A stretch of 64,000 nucleotides of DNA, from the NCBI GenBank assembly GCA_021781455.1, contig JAJXWV010000037.1, positions 1 through 64,000 of the forward strand, given 5' to 3'. This DNA is from Acidobacteriota bacterium. Lineage in GTDB: Bacteria > Acidobacteriota > Thermoanaerobaculia > Gp7-AA8. Positions 8,792 to 23,868 of the stretch are shown here, one piece after another; positions within the stretch are counted from its first letter, which is position 1, and each line of letters starts with the position of its first letter. A program made the position numbers and the translations under genes. The notes beneath the pieces are model-generated. The model did not search any database. It saw only the letters and a program-made list of their open reading frames with translations, and was not told the origin of the DNA.

Positions 8792-9829
8792 GTGAAATCC
8801 TCCGTGGTGCTCCTCCTTGCGTTGCTTGCGGCCAGTGCGGTTGCCCAACAGCCTGCAAAGAACGACGACACGCCCTCGATCAAGGTCGGAGCGCAGATCT
8901 TCGCCGACTACACGTACGGGCAGGAGCCGCTGCTGCTCGACGCGGATGGAAACCGCGTCCATCCGAGCGCGTTCAACGTCACGCGCGCCTACATCAATGT
9001 CACCGGAAACCTGACCCGCTCGATCGCCTACCGCGTCACGCCCGACATCTCGCGTGAGAGCGGTGCAGGGACGTCGCTCGCGGGCAGTCAGCTCTTCCGC
9101 CTCAAGTACGCCTACGCCCAGTTCAATCCCGCTGAATGGGCGCCGAAGGGAACGTGGCTGCGGTTCGGCATGCAGCCCACCCCGTTCATGGAGTACGCCG
9201 AGCCGATCTACCGCTATCGTTTTCAGGGGCAGCTGTTCGAGGACCGCGAAGGCTTCGAGTCGACCGCCGACACCGGCATCGCCGCCCGCACGACGCTGCC
9301 CGGGGGTGTCGACCTGCAAGGCGGCATCTTCAACGGCGAAGGTTTTTCGCGAGCGGAGACCAACAATGAGAAGTCCGCGCAGCTGCGCGCGACGTGGACG
9401 CCGTTCCGCACCGGCATCGCCAGCGGGTTGCACCTGACCGGCTACGTGCACGACGACCACTACTTCGAGCGCGCTCCGCGCCGGCGCCTGATCGGCCAGG
9501 TGGCGTTCACCCACCCGCGCTTCACCGCCGGCTTCGACTACCTCGCCACCAGGGATCAGAAGAGCACGTCATTGCCGGAAATCGAAGGGCGCGGCTTCAC
9601 GGCCTGGGTGGTGCCGAAGTTAGGCGGCGGATGGGAAGTGCTGCTGCGCCACGACCAGTTCCGGCCCGATTCGCGCTCCAGCATCGTCCGCAGGCGCGAC
9701 ATCGAAGGCCTCGCTTACTGGTTTCCCCTTCCCAAAGGCCTCTCCACCGCGCTGATGCTCGACCGCGACTCCACACGCGACACCGCGCGAACGACAAACT
9801 GGGGCGTGAAGATGATGGTGGCCTTCTGA
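8792..9829 (+). CDS. Outer-membrane porin, phosphate-selective O/P-like
   Basis: 345 residues with a GTG start (MKSSVVLLLALLAASAVAQ) and a clean signal peptide cleaved near residue 19. The rest alternates polar and hydrophobic residues as in a beta-barrel and ends in a hydrophobic strand (GVKMMVAF), as outer-membrane barrels do. Blocks RAYINVTGNLT, YRVTPDIS and LRFGMQPTPFMEYAE resemble the Porin_O_P family. The substrate cannot be read from sequence; the phosphate genes 11 kb away are only suggestive. It converges on the electron-transfer operon, separated by a repeat hairpin, and need not belong to it. Confidence 0.7.
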   Translation: MKSSVVLLLALLAASAVAQQPAKNDDTPSIKVGAQIFADYTYGQEPLLLDADGNRVHPSAFNVTRAYINVTGNLTRSIAYRVTPDISRESGAGTSLAGSQLFRLKYAYAQFNPAEWAPKGTWLRFGMQPTPFMEYAEPIYRYRFQGQLFEDREGFESTADTGIAARTTLPGGVDLQGGIFNGEGFSRAETNNEKSAQLRATWTPFRTGIASGLHLTGYVHDDHYFERAPRRRLIGQVAFTHPRFTAGFDYLATRDQKSTSLPEIEGRGFTAWVVPKLGGGWEVLLRHDQFRPDSRSSIVRRRDIEGLAYWFPLPKGLSTALMLDRDSTRDTARTTNWGVKMMVAF

Positions 9830-9988: not shown

Positions 9989-10396
9989 CTACCGCTTCAA
10001 CGACCTGACGTAAACGACCACGGCATCGATCTGGCGGTCGTTCAGGGTATGGCCCCAGGGCGGCATCAGGGCGGAGAGGCCGACGCCGGAGCCGCCGCGG
10101 CGGATGGCGTCGGCGAGATCGGCGTCGCTCTTTTTCTTCTGGAAGGCGGGATCGCCGAGGTCCCGGGGATGCGGATCGAGGTTGAAGGAATTCGATCCGT
10201 CCCCCGCGCCGGTGTCGCCATGACAGGCTTGGCAGTCGTGCTTGTAGATCGTCCTGCCGATCTCCACCTGATATTGCGTAGGCCTGGGTGGTGCCGCGGC
10301 GACCGTGTGCGCGGCCCGGTGACATCCCGGGACGATCAGCACGACGAGCAGCGCGGCGAGCAACAGGAATCGACGGGCGTGCGCTGACGCGTTCAT
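9989..10396 (-). CDS. Monohaem lipoprotein cytochrome c
   Basis: 135 residues from the ATG at 10396 (MNASAHARRF); longer in-frame starts would overlap the upstream cytochrome gene. A lipoprotein signal ends in the lipobox VPGC near residue 25, so the mature protein should be lipid-anchored in the periplasm. One haem c site, CQACH, in the pattern of small class I cytochromes with a C-terminal Met ligand (LMPPWGH). It is the last gene of the electron-transfer operon, 23 bp after the octahaem cytochrome. It probably passes electrons between the Rieske/b complex and a terminal acceptor or donor; direction is not shown by sequence. Confidence 0.9.
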   Translation of the reverse strand: MNASAHARRFLLLAALLVVLIVPGCHRAAHTVAAAPPRPTQYQVEIGRTIYKHDCQACHGDTGAGDGSNSFNLDPHPRDLGDPAFQKKKSDADLADAIRRGGSGVGLSALMPPWGHTLNDRQIDAVVVYVRSLKR

Positions 10397-10419: not shown

Positions 10420-12441
10420 TCATCGTGCGCTCCGTTGTTCGGCCGTGGCAGTGGGCGCAGCGGGCGCGGCGACAAGGGTCTCGAGGTACGCGGTCAGCCG
10501 CAGCGCATCGGTGTCGGTCAGCCCGTAATTCGGGCAGCGGATGTCGGCGCGCCACTTCTGCGGGTTCATCAGGTACGAATAGACCCAACCCGGTTTGAGC
10601 CGGGTGTGCGTGTCCGTCAGCGGTGGTCCGTAGTAGCCGCCGCTCGATCCGATGATGTGGCACGAGCGGCAGCCGAGGGTCGTGTAGAGCCGCTCTCCTT
10701 CCTTCGGATCGGCATCGGCGGCGGGTCGCCCGGCGAAGGGATTCTCCGGAATCGAAGGATCGACGTAGAAAGTCTCGATCGCGTCGGCGAGCTTCTCGGC
10801 CTCCGGCTTCGAGATCTTCATGATTGGCATGCGCTCGGGCAGGAGCGGCCGGATCGACGTCGGCAGCATGAGGTAGCTCACGAGCCAGTCGCGATTGACC
10901 TTGCTTCCTTCGAAGGTCAGCGGCGCGGTGGAAATGTCTCCGCCGCGGCTCCCGAACTGGTGGCAGCTGAGACAGCGGTAGCGGTCGACGATCTCCCCGA
11001 CCTGTCCGGCGGGAACGACGCTCGCCTGTTGGGGCGGGATATAGCGATAGGGCTCGGGAACCGGCGCAGATGACATCGAGAGCAGCGCGGTCACGATGGC
11101 CCGCCGCTGCTCGGGATCGAAGCTGAACTTCGGCATCTTCAAGCCGTCCGCGAACGAGCGGGGCGCGCTGATCTTGGCGGCCAGCCAGGCGTCGAGCGTG
11201 TGCGGCAGGTCCGTCCGTTTTCCGAAGTCGAGCGAGGAGGCACGGCGATCGCCGATGCCGTCGAGGTCCGGCCCGAACCGCTCGCCGCCCCTCTCCGTGC
11301 CGACGTGGCAGGAGAAGCAGCCGTAATTCTTGAAGAGCTCGTGGCCCTTGTCCGCGAGGGTCTGGTTGACGCGGAGCGGGTCGAGAATTTCCTTCGGCGC
11401 GTCGAAGTCACGCAGCTCGTCCTCGAAATAGGCGACCAGGTCACGCACATCCTGATCCGAGAAGGAGTACTGCGGCATCTTCGTCTTCGGATTGAAGGCG
11501 TGGGGATTGCGGATGAAGGCGATGAGCCAGCCTCGCGTTGCTCGCGTGGCAATGTGGTTCAACTCCGGCGCCGAGCCGTTACCCTTCCCGTCGACGGTGT
11601 GGCAGGTGATGCACATCGACTCCCGGAACAGGACCTTCCCATTGGCAGAGTTGCCCGCCGGCTCCGCCGAAGCCTGCTCCACGGCCTGTTCGAGCTGCGG
11701 AGGCACCGGCAGCGAGAAGAGGTAATTCGCGAGCTCGGTGATGTCGTCCTTGCTCAACTGGAAGTTGGGCATGGTGGCGTTCGGATCGACCTTCTTCGGA
11801 TCCGCGAGCCACTGCTCCACCCATGCGCCGCCGGTCTTTGAGGCAATCGACACGAAGGGAGGCGCGTCCGAGCGGAAGTCCTCGTGCCCGCGCACGGCGT
11901 GACAGGCATAGCAGCCCGCCTTGGCCATCGTGGCGCGGCCGTACGAAAGCGTAGGCGCCTCGTCCACCGTTTCCGACTGATGGCAGCGGCCGCAGCCTGA
12001 CTCCATGTAGGCGGCCGGCCGCATCGGCGCGGACGAATCCGGCGAGGTGCCGTGAGCGTCGTCTTTCGATGTGGCGAGCCCTTCGCCGGCATGGCACGCC
12101 GTACATCCAAAGCGCGGGAAGTCGCCCGGCGTGTGGTACGTGGCGACGTGCATCCGGAACGGTTCGGGCGCCCCGGCCATGACCGTGTCGGAAACGCCGA
12201 GGTGGCAGGTCGTACAGCGATCGACACGGTTGTCGAACTTCGGAATCCAGATCTGCTGGATCGCGATCTGCCGATCGGCATACACGCTGGCGGCCTTCAT
12301 GCTCGTGGCGCGCGCCAGGCCGAGGGCCTTGTACTGCGCCTGAATCGAGCGGTAGGGACGCAGCGCGTTCTTCACCGGCGAGACGGCCAGCACGGCGAGA
12401 AAGGCGAGGCTGGAGAGGGCGAAGAGTCGTCGAAGTGGCAT
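10420..12441 (-). CDS. Membrane-anchored octahaem cytochrome c
   Basis: 673 residues with an N-terminal hydrophobic helix (residues 5-22) that exports and probably anchors it. Eight CXXCH haem sites are visible in order: CTTCH, CTACH, CGRCH, CYACH, CITCH, CFSCH, CLSCH and CRSCH. The first four are close together; the last four each sit in a separate cytochrome-c-like domain with a downstream MP-containing loop (MPNF, MPQY, MPKF, MPIM) that could supply distal Met ligands. Its gene follows the subunit-IV-like gene by 10 bp, so it is likely a c-type subunit replacing cytochrome c1 or f in this Rieske/b complex. Not a known OmcS, Hao or nitrite reductase arrangement. Confidence 0.9.
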   Translation of the reverse strand: MPLRRLFALSSLAFLAVLAVSPVKNALRPYRSIQAQYKALGLARATSMKAASVYADRQIAIQQIWIPKFDNRVDRCTTCHLGVSDTVMAGAPEPFRMHVATYHTPGDFPRFGCTACHAGEGLATSKDDAHGTSPDSSAPMRPAAYMESGCGRCHQSETVDEAPTLSYGRATMAKAGCYACHAVRGHEDFRSDAPPFVSIASKTGGAWVEQWLADPKKVDPNATMPNFQLSKDDITELANYLFSLPVPPQLEQAVEQASAEPAGNSANGKVLFRESMCITCHTVDGKGNGSAPELNHIATRATRGWLIAFIRNPHAFNPKTKMPQYSFSDQDVRDLVAYFEDELRDFDAPKEILDPLRVNQTLADKGHELFKNYGCFSCHVGTERGGERFGPDLDGIGDRRASSLDFGKRTDLPHTLDAWLAAKISAPRSFADGLKMPKFSFDPEQRRAIVTALLSMSSAPVPEPYRYIPPQQASVVPAGQVGEIVDRYRCLSCHQFGSRGGDISTAPLTFEGSKVNRDWLVSYLMLPTSIRPLLPERMPIMKISKPEAEKLADAIETFYVDPSIPENPFAGRPAADADPKEGERLYTTLGCRSCHIIGSSGGYYGPPLTDTHTRLKPGWVYSYLMNPQKWRADIRCPNYGLTDTDALRLTAYLETLVAAPAAPTATAEQRSAR

Positions 12442-12451
12442 CGTCGGCTCC

Positions 12452-13153
12452 TCAGGCTCGGAACTGTTCCCACGGCCAGACCCACGACCAGCCCGGCCCG
12501 CGGAAGAACACGCCGATGATCGTGAGCAGGGCGGCGATCACGACGAACCACGTCATGATCCACTCCGGAAGGGTGACGCGCCACAGCGCCCGCCGCCAGG
12601 GGCTGGCCTGTTCGCCGTTCCTCGCTGCCAGCATCGCCGCGCCGATGATCAGCGTCGGAATGACGATCGGCCAGCAGCTGAACGCGCCGAACAGAAGCGA
12701 GAGCGCCAGGACCACCAGCGTGAGCGACGCCAGTTTGCCGCGGGAGTGCGTGGCCCACAGAGGTCCCGCTTCGAGATTGACCCTGGCGTAGGGAATCACC
12801 ACCAGGCCGATGACGACCAGCGCCGGCATGAGCACCCCCGCCACGACCGGCGGGAAGTAGTGGAGAAGCTCCTGAAGGCCGAGGAAGTACCACGGTGCCT
12901 TGGCCGGATTCGGCGTCTCGACGGGGTTGGCGATGCTCTCCAGTGGGGCGTCGAAGAAGATCGCCGCCAGCGAGAGGCCGATGACGACGAGCTGGAACAT
13001 GATGATCTCGCGCACGATCAGGTGCGGAAACGTCATCACGTATTTTTCGTCGCTCTCGCGGACAGCGGGCCGGCTGTCGCGGCGCATCAGCGCCACACGC
13101 CACGGCACGGCCACCGGATCGTTCGATTCGATGAGCTCGATCGGGGCACTCAT
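12452..13153 (-). CDS. Cytochrome b C-terminal half (subunit IV-like)
   Basis: 233 residues from the ATG at 13153, one base after the stop of the b6-like gene. It has several transmembrane helices, as expected for the C-terminal half of split cytochrome b. The quinol-oxidation (Qo) motif usually PEWY reads APWY in NPAKAPWYFLGLQELLHYFPP, so the glutamate position is proline. The N-terminal 50 residues are soluble and charged. It should form the Qo site together with the b6-like subunit and the Rieske protein. Such motif variants are known in low-potential (menaquinone) bc complexes. The split arrangement is b6f-like, not fused as in mitochondrial bc1. Confidence 0.92.
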   Translation of the reverse strand: MSAPIELIESNDPVAVPWRVALMRRDSRPAVRESDEKYVMTFPHLIVREIIMFQLVVIGLSLAAIFFDAPLESIANPVETPNPAKAPWYFLGLQELLHYFPPVVAGVLMPALVVIGLVVIPYARVNLEAGPLWATHSRGKLASLTLVVLALSLLFGAFSCWPIVIPTLIIGAAMLAARNGEQASPWRRALWRVTLPEWIMTWFVVIAALLTIIGVFFRGPGWSWVWPWEQFRA

Positions 13154-13154
13154 G

Positions 13155-13886
13155 TCATTGCCTCCCCTCTTCCGGCGGCCCCTGCACGCCGCCGTCTTTC
13201 CGCACGCGCCAGATGTGAATGGACACGAGCAGGAGCAGGGCGACGGGAAGGACGACACAGTGGAGGACGTAGAACCGCAGCAGGGCGTTCTCGGAGACGA
13301 TGTTGCCGCCGAGGAGGAAGAATCGGATTCGCTCGCCGATCAGCGGCGCCTGCTTGGCCATGTTCGTTCCCACCGACACGCCCCAGAAGGCCAGCTGGTC
13401 CCACGGCAGCAGGTAGCCGGTGTACGACAACAGCAGCGTGACCAGCAGCAGCACGACGCCGATCACCCAGTTGAACTGACGCGGCGGCCGGTAGGCGCGG
13501 TGGTAAAAGACGCGCAGCATGTGCAGGACGGCGGTGAACACCATCAGGTGTGCCGCCCAGCGGTGAAGGTTCCGGAGGAACACGCCGTCATCGACGACAT
13601 ACTGCAGTTCCTTCATGTCGCGATAAGCCTGCGGAACCGACGGGTGGTAATAGAACATCAGCAGGATCCCGGTGGCGATCAGCACGAGCATCGAGGCCAG
13701 CGTGATTCCGCCGAGCCAGAACGTGTGCGTGAAGCGGAGGCTGCGCTCGCGCACCTTGACCGGGTGCACGTGCAGAAAGAGATTCTCGAAGATGATCAGC
13801 GACCGGTTGCGGTTGGTGTCCTCCAGCCCGTGCCGGATGACCGATCGGTAGACGGACGTGCCGCGAATCCACTCTCCGGTGGTCAT
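13155..13886 (-). CDS. Cytochrome b N-terminal half (b6-like)
   Basis: 243 residues from the ATG at 13886, which overlaps the Rieske stop codon by four bases (ATGA). Both haem b ligand pairs are present with b6 spacing: H-X13-H in [16 protein letters not shown] and H-X14-H in the C-terminal helix beginning [10 protein letters not shown]. The conserved [12 protein letters not shown] block follows the first pair. Four membrane helices. It transfers electrons across the inner membrane between the Qo and Qi sites. Translational coupling to the Rieske gene shows they form one complex. Confidence 0.95.
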
Positions 13887-14377
13887 GGCCTGAACACCTT
13901 TCCACGGGCGATGACGATCCCGGTGTCGACGACGAGATTGCCCGCTGCGTCTTCGGTGATGTCGAGCCAGGGGAGAGGGCGCGGCGCCGGTCCGTGGGTG
14001 ACGTTGCCCTCCAGGTCGTATCGGCTGCCGTGGCAGGGGCAGGCAATGGCCTTCTCGTCGGACTTGTATCGGGTGATGCAGCCGAGGTGCGTGCACACCG
14101 CGGAGAGCGCGTAAACGCCGGTGGGGCCGCCGATGACGAAAGCCTTGTTGTCCTTGTAAAAGCGGACGACGCCGTCGGAGTAGTCGAGAGGCGAACCGGC
14201 CACGAAGGTGGTGGGCGGCTCGAACAGGACCTTGGGCTTGAGGTAGTCGAGAGTGACGATTCCGGAGCCTGCGGCAGCGACCGCGCAGGCGGCCACGCCA
14301 GCCTGGACGAAGAAGTCGCGGCGCGTCGGCTTTCCCTCGTCATCCTCGATGTCGAGTGTGGTGTCGAGATCAGGCAA
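13883..14377 (-). CDS. Rieske [2Fe-2S] protein of cytochrome bc-type complex
   Basis: 164 residues. A twin-arginine-like signal ([17 protein letters not shown], residues 19-35) provides export and the membrane anchor. The cluster motifs are complete: CTHLGC and CPCHGS. It ends soon after the cluster domain. It overlaps the upstream oxidoreductase gene by eight bases and the downstream b6-like gene by four, so all three are translationally coupled. It takes the first electron of quinol oxidation (or delivers it when running in reverse) and passes it to the c-type subunit. Confidence 0.96.
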
Positions 14378-16199
14378 CGACGTTCTCCTTTCGATGGAAG
14401 CTGCGCATGGTGATGGTTCCGACCGGGCAGCGCGCGGCGCAGAGGCCGCAACGGATGCAGACTTCTTCGTTCTTGAGCATGACCGCGCCGACGCGGTGAT
14501 CCTCGATCAGCACCGGAGCGAGCTCGCGCGAGTTAGGCGGCAGCAGGGCGATCCGCGAGGCGGGGACGATCTCGATGCAGTTCTCCGGACAGATGTCCTG
14601 GCAACCGCCGCAGAGAATGCACTCGCTGCCGAGGGACGGTTGCTGGTCGAAGATCGTGTTGACCCAGCAGCGCAGGCAGCGGCTCCCCTCCTTGCGGGCC
14701 TGCTTCTCGCTGAAGCATTCCTCGACCTCGGCGATGCCGATGCGCCTCGCCAGCGGGCGTGCCGGCGGCTTCTGCCGGGGAATGGCTTCGAAATCGAGCT
14801 CGCGGTCCCAGCGCGGCTCGATGACCACTTCCACCTGCTCCCGCTCGGAGAGGCGGGGCTCGCCGCGCAGGAACTCGTCGATCGACTTCGCGGCGCGTTT
14901 TCCGTCGGCGACGGCGTTGATGGCGATGCGCGGCCCGAACGCCGCATCTCCGCCCGAGTAGATGCCGGGCGCCGTCGTGGCCAGCGTGTCGGGGTCGATG
15001 GTGATGCGGCCGCCGCGCGAGGCTACTCCATCTTCCGGCCGCAGGAACGACAGGTCGCCGGTCTGGCCGATGGCCATGATCACGCTGTCGGTGTCCACCA
15101 CGAACTCGGATCCCGCAACGAACTGAGGATCGAACCGCCCGTTCTCGTCGAAGACCCGTGCCACCCGCAGAAACTCGATGCCCGTGACCTTGCCGTCGCT
15201 GCCGACGATCCGCTTGGGACCGACGTGATACTGAAAGTGAATTCCTTCGATGGAAGCCTCGTCGACTTCGTCCTTCGCCGCCGGCATCTCGGCTTCCGAC
15301 TCGAGGCAGCAGACGGTCACGTCGCGCGCCCCGAAGCGAACGGCACTGCGGGCGACGTCCATGGCCTGGACGATCGAGAGATTGCGCTGCAGGTTCGTCT
15401 GCTCGCCGCCGCGGGCGGCCGTGCGCGCCACGTCCAGCGCTACGTTGCCGCCGCCGATGACCACCACGCGGCGGCCCATCTCCACCCGGTATCCGAGATT
15501 CACGTTGAGCAGGTAATCGATGCCGCGCAGAACGCCGTCGTACTCCACGCCCGGGATCGACAGGTCGCGGCTCTTCATCGAGCCGACGCCCAGAAAAATT
15601 GCGCCGTAGCCCTGAGCCTTCAGCTCCGAGAGCGTCACATCCTTGCCGATGCGCACTCCCGTCCGCAGCTCCACTCCCAGTGAGAGGATGGCGTTGATCT
15701 CCAGCTGAATCAGCGCTCGCGGCAGCCGGTACTCCGGGACCCCGAGCCGCAGCATCCCGCCGGCCACCGGGGCCGCCTCGAAGATCGTCACCCCGTAGCC
15801 GAGCAATGCCAGGTCGTGGGCACACGCGAGCCCGGCCGGGCCCGAGCCGATCACTGCGACCTTCTCGGGGTACCGGCCGGTGCGATCACCGTAGATCTCC
15901 GAAAGCACCGAGAAGTCGACCATGCTTTCCACGCCGAACCTCTCGGTGACGAAGCGCTTGAGCGCGCGAATCGACACCGGCGCGTCGAGCTCCCCGCGCC
16001 GGCACACCGCTTCACACGGAGCAGCGCAGATGCGCCCGCAGATCGACGCCAGCGGATTGGGCCGCCGCGCCACTGCGTAGGCCTCGCGGAACCGCCCCTC
16101 GGAAATGAGGGTCACGTACTTGCCGGCTTCCGTGTGAACAGGACAGGCCTGCTTGCACGGGAAGTTCCGCTCCAGCCATTCCTCGTTGAGCTCGGCCAT
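14370..16199 (-). CDS. GltD-type NAD(P)/FAD oxidoreductase with ferredoxin domains
   Basis: 609 residues from the ATG at 16199, four bases after the cupredoxin stop. N-terminal [4Fe-4S] region of the GltD/DPD type (FPCKQACPV, then CGRICAAPCEAVCRRG), an FAD-binding Rossmann fold (VAVIGSGPAGLACAHDLA, about residue 115), an NAD(P)-binding fold (VVVIGGGNVALDVAR), and a C-terminal pair of [4Fe-4S] ferredoxin motifs (CILCGGCQDICPENC and CIRCGLCAARCPVGT). There is no signal peptide, so it faces the cytosol. GltD relatives move electrons between NAD(P)H and Fe-S partners. No glutamate synthase large subunit is nearby, and overlap with the Rieske gene suggests it is the NAD(P) module of this respiratory complex; anammox Rieske/b complexes with an NAD(P) oxidoreductase subunit are a precedent. 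Confidence 0.9.
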   Translation of the reverse strand: MAELNEEWLERNFPCKQACPVHTEAGKYVTLISEGRFREAYAVARRPNPLASICGRICAAPCEAVCRRGELDAPVSIRALKRFVTERFGVESMVDFSVLSEIYGDRTGRYPEKVAVIGSGPAGLACAHDLALLGYGVTIFEAAPVAGGMLRLGVPEYRLPRALIQLEINAILSLGVELRTGVRIGKDVTLSELKAQGYGAIFLGVGSMKSRDLSIPGVEYDGVLRGIDYLLNVNLGYRVEMGRRVVVIGGGNVALDVARTAARGGEQTNLQRNLSIVQAMDVARSAVRFGARDVTVCCLESEAEMPAAKDEVDEASIEGIHFQYHVGPKRIVGSDGKVTGIEFLRVARVFDENGRFDPQFVAGSEFVVDTDSVIMAIGQTGDLSFLRPEDGVASRGGRITIDPDTLATTAPGIYSGGDAAFGPRIAINAVADGKRAAKSIDEFLRGEPRLSEREQVEVVIEPRWDRELDFEAIPRQKPPARPLARRIGIAEVEECFSEKQARKEGSRCLRCWVNTIFDQQPSLGSECILCGGCQDICPENCIEIVPASRIALLPPNSRELAPVLIEDHRVGAVMLKNEEVCIRCGLCAARCPVGTITMRSFHRKENVVA

Positions 16200-16203
16200 G
16201 GCC

Positions 16204-16779
16204 CTATTTCGAGATCGTGAAATCCGCTGCCGTAGCACCCTTGACGGTTACGCTCTTCTGCGCGCCCTTCAGCGTCGGATGCCACACCTTGACCGTGTAG
16301 CTGCCGTCAGGAACGTCCTTGATTTCGTACGAACCATCGGCGGACGTCACGGCGTGGTAGGGAGTTGGGATGACCGCGACGTATCCCTCCATTTCCGGAT
16401 GAACCTTGCACAGCAGAGCCGCAAAGCACTGCTTCTTGAAGGTGTAGCTCTTGGACTGACCCTGCGGCCAGGTGCCGAGGTTGAAGTGATCGGCGCAGGC
16501 ATCGGGAGAGAAGACGTTGTGAAGAAGGGCGTCGGAATTGAGAAAGTCGACGGTCGTCCCGGTCTGGACGGCCAGCACATGCGGGACGAACTCCATGTTC
16601 TTCTGGTTCATTTTGGCGTGCGCCGCGGGTGCCGCGAAGGTCTTCCCGGCGATGCTGTCGATGTAGACGACGGCATCGGCGGAGTTGCGCACACCGTGAG
16701 CGATCACTTTGCCGTGAATGTCGCCGGCGAAGATCGGTGCGGCGACGAGAAGAACGAACAGGGGAATCAGTCGTTTCAT
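16204..16779 (-). CDS. Periplasmic cupredoxin with carboxypeptidase-like regulatory tail
   Basis: 191 residues from the ATG at 16779, with a strong ribosome site (GAGGAGG) seven bases upstream. Signal peptide LIPLFVLLVAAPIFA. The first domain (about 20-125) has type I copper ligands: His in LLHNVFSP, then Cys, His and Met in CKVHPEMEGYV (C-X2-H-X2-M). The rest (about 130-191) is a carboxypeptidase-regulatory-like beta domain (ADGSYEIKDVPDGSYTVKVWHP). Often labelled plastocyanin-like or methylamine-utilisation-like. In this operon, between a porin-cytochrome and a cytochrome b complex, it is best read as a periplasmic electron shuttle, in the position rusticyanin takes in acidophilic iron oxidisers. 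Confidence 0.85.
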   Translation of the reverse strand: MKRLIPLFVLLVAAPIFAGDIHGKVIAHGVRNSADAVVYIDSIAGKTFAAPAAHAKMNQKNMEFVPHVLAVQTGTTVDFLNSDALLHNVFSPDACADHFNLGTWPQGQSKSYTFKKQCFAALLCKVHPEMEGYVAVIPTPYHAVTSADGSYEIKDVPDGSYTVKVWHPTLKGAQKSVTVKGATAADFTISK

Positions 16780-16866
16780 TGAATGCCTCCTCAGGATGCG
16801 AATGGCAGAGTCATTGAGAGGGCGTAACCAACGTCGTTGCGCCATGCGATGAAGAACGAAAATCGA

Positions 16867-18264
16867 TCAGAACAGGAACGAGGCGGACAGATATGTGGAG
16901 TTGTTCGCGCTCGCGTTCCGGCCCGAACCGTCGTAGTTGGTCTTTGCGCCGTTGAACTTCGTGTAGCCCGTGTATTGCGCTTCGAGACCGATGTTCATGG
17001 TCGGCCACCAGGAGAGATTCAGGATGTACCCGTTGCTTTGCGGAGAGCCGTTGTTGCTTCCACTCACTTCTGCCGGCGCGTAAAGCACAGCGTCTGTGGT
17101 CCCGGTGGTGTTGAAGAATCCGACGGCAGTCGAAACCTTGTTGCCGAAGTGGTACTCAGCGTTCGCTTGCAGCGTGTTGAGGTGATGCGAGGATTGCGAT
17201 GCACCCTCAGCGCCAAAGGTGGCATCGAGCTTTGAGGTTTCGCGGATGTACGTACCGCGGAATGAAAGAACGTTGCTGCAGGGCGGCTTCTGGCAGAAGA
17301 AGTCGGGTGCGACGCGGGGCAGCGTGGCGTCGTATTGAAAGTCTGCGGCCACGTCGGTGTAAGTGTCCTTGGGGCCGGTGACGGACCCGGGCGTCGCGCT
17401 GACGTGGATGCCGTAGGTTCCGATCTCGAAGTAGTTGTTCTTGCTCGGGTGCTGCCAGGCCACGCGCCAGTAAGGCGCGACGCCCTGAATGTTGAGGCTC
17501 GAATCTTGTCCCGTCAGGGGTTGTGAAGCGCCCACGTGGTCGGAGCGATAGAGCGTCGCCGCCGCGTACAGCTGGTTGTTCCACAGTCCATATCCGCCGA
17601 GTCCCACGACGTCCTGTGCAAGACCGCCGTTGATGACCGCCGAGGCCATCGGCGTCGGCGCAACGTCGCTGGCGAAAAATGGGAAGCCCCAGGCCGGCGT
17701 GCTGTTCCAGAGGTCCTCGACCGTTGGATTGTTGTTCAGTGTGATTCCGTAGTTGAAATTCTTCCCGAGAAGCCTCGACTGATTCGCATAGCGGATATCG
17801 GTGTTGTCCATGCTGAAGTGGTCGTCGACTGCGCTGTAGGTAACCTGCAGAAAACTTCCTACGTTGGTCGCCCACGCACCCGAGAGGAAGAAGGAAAGCG
17901 TCTGTGGAAACTCGACGCTGCCGTTCTGGGTTCCGGGCTGTGGCGACTTCGTCGAGGTGAGCGACGACTGGAACCACACCGACAGCGGCAGGGTCGATAG
18001 AAGATCGAGTGCCGCCGTCTTCTTGTTCGATTCCGCGGTGATCGACGGGGCGGCTTTCAGCACGTAACCGTTGAGCTTGAAATCGCGCCCTTCCGCGGTC
18101 AGTTCGGGCGGGGTCGTGTGGCATTGGCTGCAGGAATAGCCCGTCTGGCGCGCATAACTCGGAACCGCGAACGCTGTCGGCCGGTAGAGCGCAATCACGC
18201 AAAGCACGAATACGAAACGGGTGAGCGGGGGCAACAAGGATCCCTGTCGCGGACGACTCCTCAT
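16867..18264 (-). CDS. Fused monohaem cytochrome-porin, Cyc2-like
   Basis: 465 residues from the ATG at 18264 (AAAGGAG eight bases upstream). The signal peptide ends near ALYRPTAFA; the mature protein opens with PSYARQTGYSCSQCH, one haem c site, and continues TPPELTAEGRDFKLNGY. This opening matches the plug-like cytochrome domain of Cyc2 and its relatives. The remaining ~400 residues are alternating beta strands with a terminal aromatic strand (SASFLF), as in an outer-membrane barrel; one barrel loop carries an extra Cys pair (FFCQKPPCS). Such fusions move electrons across the outer membrane, and Cyc2 itself oxidises Fe(II). Many relatives are uncharacterised, so substrate and direction are inference. 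First gene of the operon. Confidence 0.8.
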   Translation of the reverse strand: MRSRPRQGSLLPPLTRFVFVLCVIALYRPTAFAVPSYARQTGYSCSQCHTTPPELTAEGRDFKLNGYVLKAAPSITAESNKKTAALDLLSTLPLSVWFQSSLTSTKSPQPGTQNGSVEFPQTLSFFLSGAWATNVGSFLQVTYSAVDDHFSMDNTDIRYANQSRLLGKNFNYGITLNNNPTVEDLWNSTPAWGFPFFASDVAPTPMASAVINGGLAQDVVGLGGYGLWNNQLYAAATLYRSDHVGASQPLTGQDSSLNIQGVAPYWRVAWQHPSKNNYFEIGTYGIHVSATPGSVTGPKDTYTDVAADFQYDATLPRVAPDFFCQKPPCSNVLSFRGTYIRETSKLDATFGAEGASQSSHHLNTLQANAEYHFGNKVSTAVGFFNTTGTTDAVLYAPAEVSGSNNGSPQSNGYILNLSWWPTMNIGLEAQYTGYTKFNGAKTNYDGSGRNASANNSTYLSASFLF

Positions 18265-18467: not shown

Positions 18468-19133
18468 TCAGATCAAGTTCTTCTGGAAGGCGAACGCCAC
18501 CGCTTCGGCCTTGGAGTGAACTTCGAGCTTCTCCAGGATGTTCTGGATGTGGCTGCGGGCCGTCAGCTGCGAAATGTGCAGCCGTTCGGCGATCTCGGGC
18601 GTGGTGCGGCCGGCGGCGATCATCCCCAGCACTTCCACTTCCCGTCCCGTGAGCTTTCTGGCACGCACGTCCGCGGAGTCGCGCACCGCCACCAGGTGCG
18701 GCCGCGGCGGCTGCTCAGCTGCCGGTTCGACGGCGGCGGCCCGACTCTCCGTCCCGGCTGGCCTGACCATATGCACCAGGTAGTAGCCGTCAGCACCTCG
18801 AAGCTGGAGCACGTTGATATCGGTCATCACCGGCTCGCGCTCGCGCGTCTCCAGCGTCAGACCGAAGTGCCGGACGGTCTCGCTCCGATTGGCAAGGTTC
18901 ATCACCGGGCAGTTGGTCGTGCAGTAGCGGTTGCCCCAGGCGTCGGTGCCGCGGAGAAGCTCCGAGCAGAGCGTGCCGACCGCCTCGTCGGAGTCGAATC
19001 CGAGGACGCGGCGGGCAGCCTCGTTCCAGAACACGACGCGGTTCGAGCGATCGGTAATGAAGACCGCGTCGGGTGACGCGTCCAGCGAGCGGAACAGCGG
19101 AACGAGTTCTTCTTCGATGTCGCGGCGAAACAA
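18468..19133 (-). CDS. PAS-LuxR transcriptional regulator with cysteine cluster
   Basis: 221 residues, starting at TTG with GAGGGA about a dozen bases upstream. PAS domain (about 8-125) containing Cys56, Cys71 and Cys75 in a loop (GNRYCTTNCPVMN); C-terminal LuxR-type helix-turn-helix (about 160-215: LTGREVEVLGMIAAGRTTPEIAERL). There is no receiver domain, so the PAS fold is the sensor. The cysteine triad could bind a metal or Fe-S cluster, or act as a thiol switch. It is on the same strand as, and 203 bp upstream of, the electron-transfer operon, so it is the obvious candidate regulator, though no binding site was identified. Confidence 0.88.
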   Translation of the reverse strand: MFRRDIEEELVPLFRSLDASPDAVFITDRSNRVVFWNEAARRVLGFDSDEAVGTLCSELLRGTDAWGNRYCTTNCPVMNLANRSETVRHFGLTLETREREPVMTDINVLQLRGADGYYLVHMVRPAGTESRAAAVEPAAEQPPRPHLVAVRDSADVRARKLTGREVEVLGMIAAGRTTPEIAERLHISQLTARSHIQNILEKLEVHSKAEAVAFAFQKNLI

Positions 19134-19859: not shown

Positions 19860-20017
19860 GGCTGTCGTTTCTCACGTTCTGGTGGTGAGCAGTGTACCTG
19901 CGGGAGGGCAGGGGCGCGATTTCGGGGCGTGCGGAAGGTCGCGACAGCGAGCGTTTTTTCGGCGTAGAGTGCCGTTCGGCAACGGTGCCGAGGCTCCGCG
20001 CCGTAGGCCGCGAGCGT

Positions 20018-20707
20018 GTGAAGCAAGTGGAAAAACTGCCGAAGATCGCCATCATCGAAGACGACGCCGATCTGGCGTTCACGATGCGCTTGAACATCGA
20101 GCGGCAGGGTTACTACGTCAGCGTCTTCGGCAACGGCCGCGAAGGTCTGCAGGGCGTGCAGAACGGGAACTTCGACCTGCTGGTGCTCGACTTGAACCTT
20201 CCCGACGTGGACGGGCTGACGATCTGCCGCGAGATCCGCCGCGACCCAGCCACGGCATCGCTGGCGATTCTCATGCTGACCGCCCGCGCCTCGGAACAGG
20301 ACCGCATCACGGGCCTCGAGCTCGGCGCCGACGATTACCTGACCAAGCCGTTCAGCGTCCGTGAGCTCGTGGCGCGGATCGGCGCGATCCTGCGCCGCTC
20401 ACGCAACGTCGGAGCGGACAATGTCTACGACGACGGCGTCCTTCGGCTGGACCCGGCAGCCCTGCGGGTCAGCGTGAACGGCGAAGAAGTGAAGCTGGCC
20501 CGAAAGGAATTCGAGCTGCTGCAGACGCTGGTCAGGGAACAGCCGGCGGTCGTTTCCCGCGAGCGGCTGCTCGCCCAGGTCTGGCAGATGTCGGAGGACG
20601 TCGAGACGCGGACGATCGACGCCCACATCCGCAACGTTCGCAAGAAAATCGGCAAGGACCGGATCGAAACGGTGATCGGGTTCGGATACCGGTATAAGAG
20701 CGGGTAG
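20018..20707 (+). CDS. OmpR/PhoB-type response regulator
   Basis: 229 residues from the GTG at 20018 (KQVEKLPKIAIIEDDADL). A GTG 126 bases further upstream would add a tail unlike any receiver and is less likely. Receiver domain with acidic pocket IIEDD, phospho-acceptor Asp in LLVLDLNLPDVDG and Lys in YLTKPF; then an OmpR-type winged helix (about 130-225, RKEFELLQTLV, TRTIDAHIRNVRKKIG). Followed by a sensor kinase, a PhoU-like protein and Pit, so it is most likely a PhoB-like regulator of phosphate uptake. Its 3' end runs into a repeat hairpin. Confidence 0.93.
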   Translation: MKQVEKLPKIAIIEDDADLAFTMRLNIERQGYYVSVFGNGREGLQGVQNGNFDLLVLDLNLPDVDGLTICREIRRDPATASLAILMLTARASEQDRITGLELGADDYLTKPFSVRELVARIGAILRRSRNVGADNVYDDGVLRLDPAALRVSVNGEEVKLARKEFELLQTLVREQPAVVSRERLLAQVWQMSEDVETRTIDAHIRNVRKKIGKDRIETVIGFGYRYKSG

Positions 20708-20771
20708 CGGTCAGCGGGTAGCGTGTAGGTCCCAGCGATCCTACGTCCTACCCGCTAACCGCACCCGCTGC
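20698..20771. repeat. Two-armed heptamer hairpin (AGCGGGT type)
   Basis: Left arm 20698-20729 (GCGGGTAGCGG units) overlaps the last codons of the response regulator gene. Right arm 20740-20769 (CCTACCCGCTAACCGC) is its complement. The CTACCCG units at 151-171 belong to the same family. It separates the regulator from the histidine kinase gene. Confidence 0.8.
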
Positions 20772-20781
20772 TCGCTTCGCA

Positions 20782-22173
20782 ATGCATCCGCTTCGTCTCT
20801 GGCTGTACGTCTCGCTGGCGATCGCGATCGCGGTCGGTGCCGGGTTCGCCGCGGCGTTGCTGCACGCGCACGTTCCGGCCATCGACGCCTACGTCCTGGG
20901 CGTGGTCGTGTTCGTGCTGTTCATGCTGCCGTGGAGCGGCGTGTTCGTCTGGGCGATCCGCAGGGCCGAGGGGCTGGAACAGCTGATCGTACGGACGCGC
21001 GGTATCGCCACGGGCGAGAACGAGAGCCCCGTCGACGAGTCGATCTACCGCGAAGAGGTCGGGGACCTGGCCCGCGCCGTCGAGGAAGTGCGGGTGCTGA
21101 TCATGCGCGAGCGGGCCTGGTCGGAGGAGCAACGGGCCACGATGCAGCAGATCGCCGGCGCGCTCAGCGAAGGGCTGCTCGCGTTCAGCCCGCGCGGCCG
21201 CATCGTTCTGGCCAACGACCGCGTGCGCCAGATGCTCGGCTCGCGCGGCGACATCGTCGGCCGGCCGCTGGTCGAAGTGCTGCGCAACCAGCGCCTGATC
21301 GCCGCCTTCGAGCGCGCCGTCAAGGGCGAGGCGTCGACCGACCGGATCGCCATCGAGGCCGGCGGCGCCGAGCGCCACATCGAGCTGCGAGTCTCGCCGG
21401 TCATGAGCTCGACGGACGTGGCAGCGGTGGCGCTGTTCATCGACGTCACCGACATCGAGCGCCTGCAGCGCATCCGAAAGGACTTCCTGGACGACTTCTC
21501 GCACGAGGTGCGCACACCGCTGGCGGGATTCCGCTCCGCCGCCGAGACGCTCGAGCAGGGCGGCCTGGCTCCGCAGGAAGAGCATCAGCTGCGCGAGATC
21601 ATGCTGCGCCAGCTCAGCCGCATCGAACGGCTGGTGCGCGACCTCTCCGAACTGAGCCGCATCGAGTCGGGCGAGCTTGTGCTCAAACGCGAGATCATCG
21701 ACATGCGCAACCTTCTCGGCCAGCTCTGCCGCGAGTTCCGCGAGCGCATCCCGCCGGGCGCCGTCAAGATCACCGTGCGCGGCGAGCACGCGGCGGCGGA
21801 CGTCGATTCGCTGCGCATCCAGCAGATCTTCTCGAACCTTCTCGACAATGCCTGGAAACACGGCGGCGGCCGCGGCGAGATTCTCGTGGAAGTGGCCGCG
21901 GAAGGCGGCGAGGCGGTGATCCGTGTCTCCGACGAAGGAGAAGGAATCCCGGCTGCGGAGCTCGACCGCATCTTCAACCGCTTCTACCGTGTCGACAAGA
22001 GCCGTTCCCAGAACGTCCCCGGAACCGGGCTTGGCCTCGCCATTACGCGGCACCTGGTGCTGCTCCACGGCGGCACGATCCGGGCGTACAACCGCTCCGG
22101 CGGCGGAGCAACGTTTGAAGTGCGCCTGCCCGCGGCCGAGCTGCCAGCCACTGCCGCGCAGAGCCTCCCCTGA
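20782..22173 (+). CDS. PhoR-like sensor histidine kinase
   Basis: 463 residues. Two adjacent N-terminal membrane helices (about 5-30 and 37-57) with almost no periplasmic loop, as in PhoR; then a HAMP-like linker, a PAS domain (about 120-225), HisKA with the phospho-accepting His in DDFSHEVRTPLAGF (about 242), and HATPase with NLLDNAWKHGGG and GTGLGLAITRHLV. With the regulator just upstream this is a classical pair. The lack of a sizeable periplasmic sensor fits PhoR, which senses through the Pst/PhoU system. The substrate class is inferred from context. Confidence 0.92.
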   Translation: MHPLRLWLYVSLAIAIAVGAGFAAALLHAHVPAIDAYVLGVVVFVLFMLPWSGVFVWAIRRAEGLEQLIVRTRGIATGENESPVDESIYREEVGDLARAVEEVRVLIMRERAWSEEQRATMQQIAGALSEGLLAFSPRGRIVLANDRVRQMLGSRGDIVGRPLVEVLRNQRLIAAFERAVKGEASTDRIAIEAGGAERHIELRVSPVMSSTDVAAVALFIDVTDIERLQRIRKDFLDDFSHEVRTPLAGFRSAAETLEQGGLAPQEEHQLREIMLRQLSRIERLVRDLSELSRIESGELVLKREIIDMRNLLGQLCREFRERIPPGAVKITVRGEHAAADVDSLRIQQIFSNLLDNAWKHGGGRGEILVEVAAEGGEAVIRVSDEGEGIPAAELDRIFNRFYRVDKSRSQNVPGTGLGLAITRHLVLLHGGTIRAYNRSGGGATFEVRLPAAELPATAAQSLP

Positions 22174-22243
22174 GAGCGCCACAGCAGCTGTCACAACCGG
22201 GCCCGGCTGCTGAGATAGAATCCCGCCGCCTTTTGGAGGGGAC

Positions 22244-22864
22244 GTGGCGCGATTCAGCCTTTTACCGCACGAAGAGAAGTTCTACGAAGACTTCAAGACG
22301 ATGGCCGATCAGCTCAAGGTCGGTGCGCGCCTGCTGCAGGAGTTGTTCGCAAACAACCCTCCGGACGCGAACAAGGTGCACGAGATCAAGGAATCCGAGC
22401 ACAAGTGCGATTTCATCACGCACGACATCATCCAGCGCCTGAACAAGACCTTCGTCACCCCCATCGACCGCGAGGACATCCACGAGATCGCGCGCACCCT
22501 CGACGACGTCATGGACGCCATCGATGACGCCGCGGCGCTGATTCCGCTGTATCGCATCACCACCATCCGCTTCGGCGCGAGCGAGCTGGCCGTCGTCATC
22601 GCCGCGCAATGCGACGAGCTGCGCAAGGGCATCGAGGCCCTGGAAAAGAAGGACGGCGTGCTCCCCTCGACCGTCGAGATCAACCGCCTCGAGAACGAGG
22701 CCGACCGCATCCACATGCAGGCCATGGGGCAGCTCTTCGACGAGGAGCGCGACGCCATCATGGTCATGAAGTGGAAGGAGATCCTCGACCTGCTCGAGGA
22801 CGCAACCGACCGCTGCGAGGACGTCGCCAACCTCCTCGAAAACGTGGTCGTCAAACACAGCTGA
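22244..22864 (+). CDS. DUF47/PhoU-like phosphate accessory protein
   Basis: 206 residues from a GTG preceded by TTGGAGGGG, a strong ribosome site. All-helical protein of the DUF47 family (also called Pit accessory protein), recognisable from LLPHEEKFYEDFKTMA, HEIKESEHKCDFITHDI, PIDREDIHEIARTLDDVMD and the C-terminal KEILDLLEDATDRCEDVANLLENVVVKHS. These acidic repeats bind metal in PhoU relatives. The stop overlaps the pit start codon (TGATG), so the two are coupled. It probably modulates Pit and possibly the upstream kinase. Confidence 0.93.
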   Translation: MARFSLLPHEEKFYEDFKTMADQLKVGARLLQELFANNPPDANKVHEIKESEHKCDFITHDIIQRLNKTFVTPIDREDIHEIARTLDDVMDAIDDAAALIPLYRITTIRFGASELAVVIAAQCDELRKGIEALEKKDGVLPSTVEINRLENEADRIHMQAMGQLFDEERDAIMVMKWKEILDLLEDATDRCEDVANLLENVVVKHS

Positions 22865-23868
22865 TGTCGTCGCAACTCCTCATCGTCGTCGGCCTCATCG
22901 CCGTGGCTCTGTCGTTCGACTACATCAACGGCTTCCACGACGCTGCCAACTCCATCGCCACGGTCGTCTCCACGCGCGTGCTCTCACCCGGCCAGGCTGT
23001 GATCTGGGCGGCGTTCTTCAACTTTGTCGCGGCGTTCGGATTCGGAACCGCGGTGGCCAGCACCATCGGCCACGGCATGATCGACATCTCGGCCGTCACT
23101 TTCGGCGTGATCTTCGCCGGACTGGCTGGCGCCATCATCTGGGACCTCATCACCTGGTACTTTGGCCTGCCGACGAGCTCGTCGCACGCATTGATCGGCG
23201 GCTATGCCGGCGCTGCCGTGGCGCGCACGATGTCCTTCTCGGTCATCATCCCGAGCGGCTGGACCAAGACGCTGGTCTTCATCGTGGTCTCACCCCTGAT
23301 CGGCATGGTGGCAGGCCTGTCGCTCATGACCGCCACCTTCTGGACCTTCCGCAAATTCACGCCCAAGCGGGTCGACAAGTGGTTCCGGCGGCTCCAGCTG
23401 TTTTCGGCAGCCCTCTTCAGCCTCAGCCATGGCACCAACGACGCGCAGAAAACCATGGGCATCATCGCCGGCGTGCTGGTCACGGCCGGATATCTGAAAA
23501 CCTTCTCAATCCCGCTCTGGGTCATTCTCGCAGCACATGCTGCGATCGCCCTCGGCACTCTCGCGGGGGGATGGCGGATCATCCACACCATGGGTGCGCG
23601 AATCACCAAGCTGCAGCCCGTCAGCGGATTCGCCGCCGAGACCGGCGCCGCGATTGCCATCTTCACCGCCACTGCATTCGGGATCCCCGTCTCGACCACG
23701 CACGCGATCACCGGCTCGATCGTCGGCGTCGGCGCCACGCGGCGGCTCTCGGCCGTGCGCTGGGGCGTGGCCAGCCAGATCGTCTGGGCCTGGGTGCTGA
23801 CCATTCCGATGGCAGCCATGATCGGCGCCGGCGTCTTCTGGATCGCGAAGATGTTCGGCTTCCACTGA
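22864..23868 (+). CDS. pit: Low-affinity inorganic phosphate transporter Pit
   Basis: 334 residues from the ATG at 22864, overlapping the previous stop. About ten membrane helices, with the duplicated Pit signature: FDYINGFHDAANSIATVV near the N-terminus and FSLSHGTNDAQKTMGII in the second half, plus TSSSHALIGG and VSTTHAITGS. These repeats form the metal-phosphate pathway of PiT/PHO-4 symporters. Inner-membrane protein importing phosphate with protons. A repeat hairpin begins two bases after the stop. Confidence 0.96.
   Translation: MSSQLLIVVGLIAVALSFDYINGFHDAANSIATVVSTRVLSPGQAVIWAAFFNFVAAFGFGTAVASTIGHGMIDISAVTFGVIFAGLAGAIIWDLITWYFGLPTSSSHALIGGYAGAAVARTMSFSVIIPSGWTKTLVFIVVSPLIGMVAGLSLMTATFWTFRKFTPKRVDKWFRRLQLFSAALFSLSHGTNDAQKTMGIIAGVLVTAGYLKTFSIPLWVILAAHAAIALGTLAGGWRIIHTMGARITKLQPVSGFAAETGAAIAIFTATAFGIPVSTTHAITGSIVGVGATRRLSAVRWGVASQIVWAWVLTIPMAAMIGAGVFWIAKMFGFH

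Follow-up and report, generated by a model that had tools for sequence, protein, structure and literature searches.

Cyc2 proteins combine a signal peptide, one CXXCH haem site, a PxL motif and a 16-strand porin (Keffer et al. 2021, PMC8406198). The function of most homologues beyond cluster 1, especially of those in cluster 3, to which Leptospirillum Cyt572 has been assigned (PMC7029218), is an open question (PMC8406198, PMC7029218). Acidobacteria have been named as possible donors of Cyt572 (PMC10654088), and EET genes have been counted earlier in acidobacterial MAGs, for example 0–3 "oxiEET" genes in Terracidiphilus (PMC12285243). In the Acidithiobacillus rus and pet (bc1) systems a Cyc2-type conduit is found together with a cupredoxin carrier and a bc complex for uphill electron flow. 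The octahaem cytochrome bc operon of Nitrospina gracilis, Kuenenia and Methylomirabilis encodes a Rieske protein, a split cytochrome b and an octahaem cytochrome c together and has been discussed for both forward and reverse electron transport (PMC3578206). Here we describe a locus in a 64,000-nt stretch of an Acidobacteriota genome (the window) that joins elements of these systems. Its cytochrome-porin is a new member of an extended Cyc2 kind, and what is new is an operon with a swappable porin slot, of which, as of slot replacement, we found no published account in the open-access library searched.

The cytochrome-porin gene runs on the minus strand from an ATG at 18264, with AGGAG just upstream, to 16867 and encodes a secreted protein of 465 aa. 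A preliminary description had placed a Cyc2-like fused cytochrome-porin at these coordinates, which hold, while the strand had to be corrected to minus; both peptides that it quoted, PSYARQTGYSCSQCH and PPELTAEGRDFKLNGY, occur in the translation. The signal peptide is followed by AVPSYARQTGYSCSQCHTTPPELTAEGRDFKLNGY and then by the predicted barrel, and the only CXXCH is CSQCH at residues 45–49, the presumptive site of haem attachment. Cyc2 proteins have been defined as having at least 365 aa, one CXXCH near the N-terminus and a PxL motif just downstream of it (PMC8406198), and the protein has each of these, the last as CHTTPPEL, in which P53 and L55 are invariant (alignment A1). The strict motif upstream of the haem site, AxPxFAR[QK][TY] (PMC8406198), reads AVPSYARQT, so that the protein has YARQT where Cyc2 has FAR[QK][TY] and departs from it by one conservative residue, F to Y. 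The YAR variant is present in 16 of 100 aligned sequences, and many close relatives have F. Because the strict motif is missed by one residue, we file the protein as Cyc2-type and not as strict Cyc2. No Pfam or NCBIfam model matches it or its distant cousins, PDB searches with the single sequence and with profiles returned no match, and viral contigs contained no relative.

An AlphaFold2 model built on 22 relatives (mean pLDDT 67.9, pTM 0.71) predicts exactly 16 long strands between residues 94 and 464, the strand number of the Cyc2 outer-membrane porin (PMC8406198). The haem domain, which plugs the pore in Cyc2 (PMC8406198), has a pLDDT below 50 here (residues 26–54 and 71–91). The closest structures to the model in the PDB are OmpF, OmpC, OmpU and OprO, with Z of 19–22 over 276–319 residues, and hydropathy alternates along the strand residues to an extent that only 16 of 2,000 shuffles reach. 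The remainder of the protein had earlier been called barrel-like, with a prediction lacking a closed barrel named as evidence to the contrary; the 16 strands and the porin matches bear this reading out, and the model gives no open barrel. An extra cysteine pair (FFCQKPPCS) in a barrel loop had also been singled out. The pair, C324 and C329, is real; apart from the window protein only its closest homologue (L004) has it, and this periplasmic CxxxxC insert sets the two apart from Cyc2. In the model it lies in a turn of 12 residues between strands 10 and 11, whereas the other even-to-odd turns have 2–5 residues and the odd-to-even connections, on the outside, are mostly long. Because the connection of strands 10 and 11 is an even-to-odd turn, the pair is predicted to face the periplasm and not to lie in an extracellular loop.

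A scan of 84,980 GTDB genomes yielded 23 relatives in Acidobacteria, Gammaproteobacteria, Rhodopila, Nevskia and others, and CXXCH is kept in all of those that are readable across the motif. Further relatives are encoded on plasmids of Caballeronia, Acidiphilium, Acidithiobacillus ferrooxidans, Methylocystis, Polymorphobacter, Paraburkholderia and Ideonella, and among 369 gammaproteobacterial genomes a profile search told full-length matches apart from those confined to the N-terminus. Phylogenies of 100 and of 48 cytochrome-porins resolve three blocks: a CHFQHFP type, a block that contains the window protein (100/99 support) and a remainder of FARK[Y] type. L080, from genome G340, falls inside the block of the window protein with the same 100/99 support, and its gene precedes those for COX1, CtaA, a rusticyanin-like cupredoxin and two SCO1 proteins, which is a rus-type operon. 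Equating the blocks by motif and operon context, we infer that they correspond to the published clusters 1, 2 and 3. The window protein appears most like the rusticyanin-operon type of Cyc2 (Acidithiobacillus, cluster 2), and placement among haem-free porins, named beforehand as evidence against a Cyc2-like protein, is not seen. It differs from that Cyc2 in belonging to an acidobacterial subclade without a characterised member and in its linkage to a bc/NAD(P) operon where that Cyc2 has a rus/cox operon. The cluster-3-like porins, hereafter FARKY type, have architecture and operon slot in common with the window protein but form a separate supported clade; profile homology between the two types extends over 369 columns (probability 99%) at about 20% identity.

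Beside many of the relatives outside Acidobacteriota, in gammaproteobacteria and on plasmids, are genes for c-type cytochromes, a cupredoxin or a HiPIP. In two gammaproteobacterial loci (L013 and L015) HemN-like and Crp/Fnr-type genes flank the porin, and L013 also has cytochrome-bd-like genes, neighbors that hint at low-oxygen regulation. On Acidiphilium cryptum pACRY03 (L042) and a plasmid of A. ferrooxidans YQ-N3 (L048) the homolog lies beside a transposase and a c-type cytochrome in equal local gene order, showing that cytochrome-porin genes travel on plasmids.

The preliminary description had presented the protein as lying outside known iron oxidisers, which understates the case because it heads a conserved electron-transfer operon of eight genes, all on the minus strand. 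The porin gene is followed by genes for a periplasmic cupredoxin (Cup, 16204–16779) with a carboxypeptidase-regulatory-like domain and the type-1 copper ligands H...CKVHPEM; a cytoplasmic GltD/PRK12771-like NAD(P)/FAD oxidoreductase (14370–16199) with Fer4_20 and a C-terminal 2x[4Fe-4S] domain; a Rieske [2Fe-2S] subunit (13883–14377); the N-terminal (13155–13886, cyt b6/ExtP-like) and C-terminal (12452–13153, subunit IV-like) halves of cytochrome b; an octahaem c-type cytochrome (10420–12441) with an N-terminal membrane anchor and eight CXXCH; and a monohaem c-type cytochrome lipoprotein (9989–10396, lipobox LIVPGC, CQACH), the start of which could be 10423. Gaps are about 10 bp or less, or genes overlap, except for 87 bp between porin and Cup and the uncertain start of the last gene. 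The cytochrome b halves remain below the NCBIfam cut-offs for Geobacter ExtP (268 of 290 bits) and ExtQ (50 of 150 bits). A PAS-LuxR regulator (18468–19133, minus strand) is linked to the operon in most related loci. After the operon lies a convergent homolog of the phosphate-selective porin O/P (8792–9829, plus strand), and 19892–23868 holds response regulator, sensor kinase, PhoU-like and phosphate-transporter-like genes; an Rfam scan of the window found only a tRNA.

With its Rieske protein, split cytochrome b and octahaem cytochrome c encoded together, the locus has the defining content of the octahaem bc operon and, compared with the published description of the latter (PMC3578206), adds the cytochrome-porin, the cupredoxin and the GltD-like NAD(P) Fe-S flavoprotein. 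It differs from the rus and pet systems in having no oxidase genes and in joining the porin to bc and NAD(P) proteins in one operon. The operon recurs across Acidobacteriota, with nearest kin 66–91% identical; the module is present in L006, L007, L008, L012 and L017, and L004 carries the portion that lies on its contig. A cytochrome-porin fills the slot in every inspected locus with an intact operon, and at L009 the porin instead neighbors another Rieske protein and a cytochrome b with four haem sites fused to it. Among related loci the porin is placed first or last relative to the core genes, so the linkage withstands rearrangement.

Given this architecture, clade and linkage, we consider it likely that the window protein is a Cyc2-type cytochrome-porin and provides a conserved electron-transfer operon of Acidobacteriota with its electron conduit across the outer membrane, through which, by analogy with Cyc2, electrons probably pass inward from Fe(II). 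Fe(II) would enter the barrel and reduce the single haem on the periplasmic side, and electrons would pass on to the cupredoxin, the monohaem cytochrome c or both, as the gene linkage suggests. A downhill branch could then end at either of the genome's two haem-copper oxidases, which are encoded away from the operon, and an uphill branch could lead through the octahaem cytochrome and the Rieske/cytochrome b complex to quinone and further to NAD(P)+ by way of the NAD(P)/FAD/4Fe-4S protein. The genome has no match to RuBisCO, so iron would supplement a heterotroph and not support Calvin-cycle autotrophy; together with the two oxidases this favors a heterotroph that uses Fe(II) facultatively.

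The bc and NAD(P) genes fit outward electron flow equally well, and the operon encodes a complete path by which electrons from NAD(P)H and quinone could reach the periplasm. Electrons from quinol and NAD(P)H might therefore leave through the bc/octahaem proteins and periplasmic carriers to the porin and on to extracellular Fe(III), humics or another acceptor, or the conduit might be reversible. The missing RuBisCO would suit such a role too, and a Cyc2 isoform has been discussed for Fe(III) reduction in acidithiobacilli (PMC10715153). However, in each of the three clusters the Cyc2 that has been assayed biochemically oxidises Fe(II) (PMC8406198), and the same study reasons that one haem in a small pore suits dissolved Fe2+ and not solids. 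The nearest operon-anchored relative of the window protein, moreover, lies in a rusticyanin/oxidase operon; we regard outward or reversible flow as rather unlikely. A different donor, such as Mn(II), Cu(I) or As(III), or a role in metal sensing or detoxification and not in energy metabolism, appears improbable. It would agree with the two further haem-porins of the genome, which are encoded on contigs with heavy-metal RND efflux genes, and a paper on manganese-oxidising Manganitrophaceae reportedly treats Cyc2-type proteins, but in all intact operons seen the slot gene is linked to genes for the bc, octahaem and NAD(P) proteins and not to efflux genes. Inward flow from Fe(II) is the direction that we prefer.

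No orthologue of the window porin is present in the one same-genus and 16 same-family genomes searched, three of which have a cytochrome b orthologue at 90–91%. In G001, G005, G014 and G048 the equivalent operon instead carries a FARKYETSCQTCH-type (FARKY) cytochrome-porin in the slot, as do G030 and G006 as far as their contigs extend, and a set of 396 evenly drawn Acidobacteriota genomes added 16 FARKY-type slot loci and one of window type (G452). We reconstructed an operon tree from the concatenated other operon proteins of 33 loci (2,057 columns), in which supported branches force at least six changes of slot type. In this tree the window is sister to G001, which has the FARKY type, and G021, with the window type, is sister to G048 (FARKY type) and G024 (type unknown). 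The porin tree conflicts with it in placing the window porin as sister to that of L004, a locus with only 51% identity to the window in Cup and the GltD-like protein, and a constraint that groups the window, G021 and G033 porins, so that the porin follows the operon tree, is rejected by the AU test (p = 8e-5). The FARKY-type gene of the window lineage was thus replaced in place by a window-type gene acquired separately from the rest of the operon, and similar slot replacement has happened repeatedly elsewhere.

The breakpoints can be located at the nucleotide level. G021 and G048, which belong to the same genus, are 90% identical over 818 bp reaching 13 bp into the slot gene, identity resumes at 89% at the stop codon, and the gene between is the sole difference. 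Homology between the window and its same-genus counterpart G001, at 82% DNA identity, ends at 16820, a position between the start of Cup and the porin stop codon at 16867. At 16791–16829 on the minus strand, just before the Cup ATG, 39 nt including a stop codon read GYALSMTLPFAS and match the FARKY-type end NYQLSTILRFAF at 23 of 36 nt with G001 and 24 of 36 with G006 in fixed register, a match equaled by none of 20,000 random 36-mers of the window. Shuffles without the fixed register gave a weaker result, with 5 of 1,000 (G001) and 12 of 1,000 (G006) reaching the score, and the other four sequences gave no signal in this unconstrained test. Because the register was noticed post hoc and the unconstrained shuffles are weaker, we regard the 36-nt stretch as a probable leftover of the 3′ end of the displaced FARKY-type gene. 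The porin gene is low for the region in G+C (0.600) and GC3 (0.773), but Cup is equally low (0.592 and 0.781) and yet related to the same-genus copy, so composition was not used as evidence of transfer.

The slot difference could in principle stem from chimeric assembly, or from neutral recombination between porin types that are not functionally equivalent, since many of the genomes are MAGs and the remnant is just 36 nt. Both appear very improbable, because the window contig is 107 kb long and its genome has ratings of 100% completeness and 0% contamination, the slot change recurs at least six times, and the G021/G048 breakpoints both fall at gene ends. Repeated replacement in place therefore makes it likely that the two porin types are functional equivalents, and they may perhaps be tuned to different conditions. 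The mutual replacement of cluster-2-like and cluster-3-like proteins amounts to natural complementation evidence for a shared job, and the operon names the cupredoxin, the octahaem bc complex and the NAD(P) flavoprotein as likely partners. Acidobacteriota, which are abundant in soils, become candidates for iron-linked electron uptake or release, and the operon can serve as a marker in transcriptomes. A broader reading, which we put forward tentatively and somewhat doubt in full, is that Acidobacteriota widely carry an unrecognised electron-uptake operon feeding a bc complex and NAD(P)+, the conduit of which is a swap locus where recombination in conserved flanks exchanges porins of different Cyc2 clusters, the other operon genes staying in place, and cluster-2-like and cluster-3-like forms are interchangeable and donor-tuned.

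Elsewhere in the genome, a second cytochrome-porin (IPAFARMHKTTCQTCH; contig C12, 7335–8882, locus L002; 7344–8882 in L188) groups as sister to its family's FARKY slot proteins and adjoins RND heavy-metal efflux genes (AcrB-type and HlyD/CusB-type) with no bc operon. A third haem-porin-like protein of 374 aa (VPMWSRRYSVPCSTCHAYP; L189, 8150–9271, minus strand) is encoded on contig C15, which also carries an AcrB-type efflux gene and other small genes. A second cupredoxin copy, 72–75% identical to Cup (contig C24, 15441–16007; L227, 8780–9508), adjoins a c-type cytochrome, and neither a porin nor bc genes lie close to it. Several nearly complete genomes of a single genus, g69 (L228–L231; G630, G543, G603 and G567), carry the operon in its FARKY form; this genus may be cultured and hence suited to genetics.
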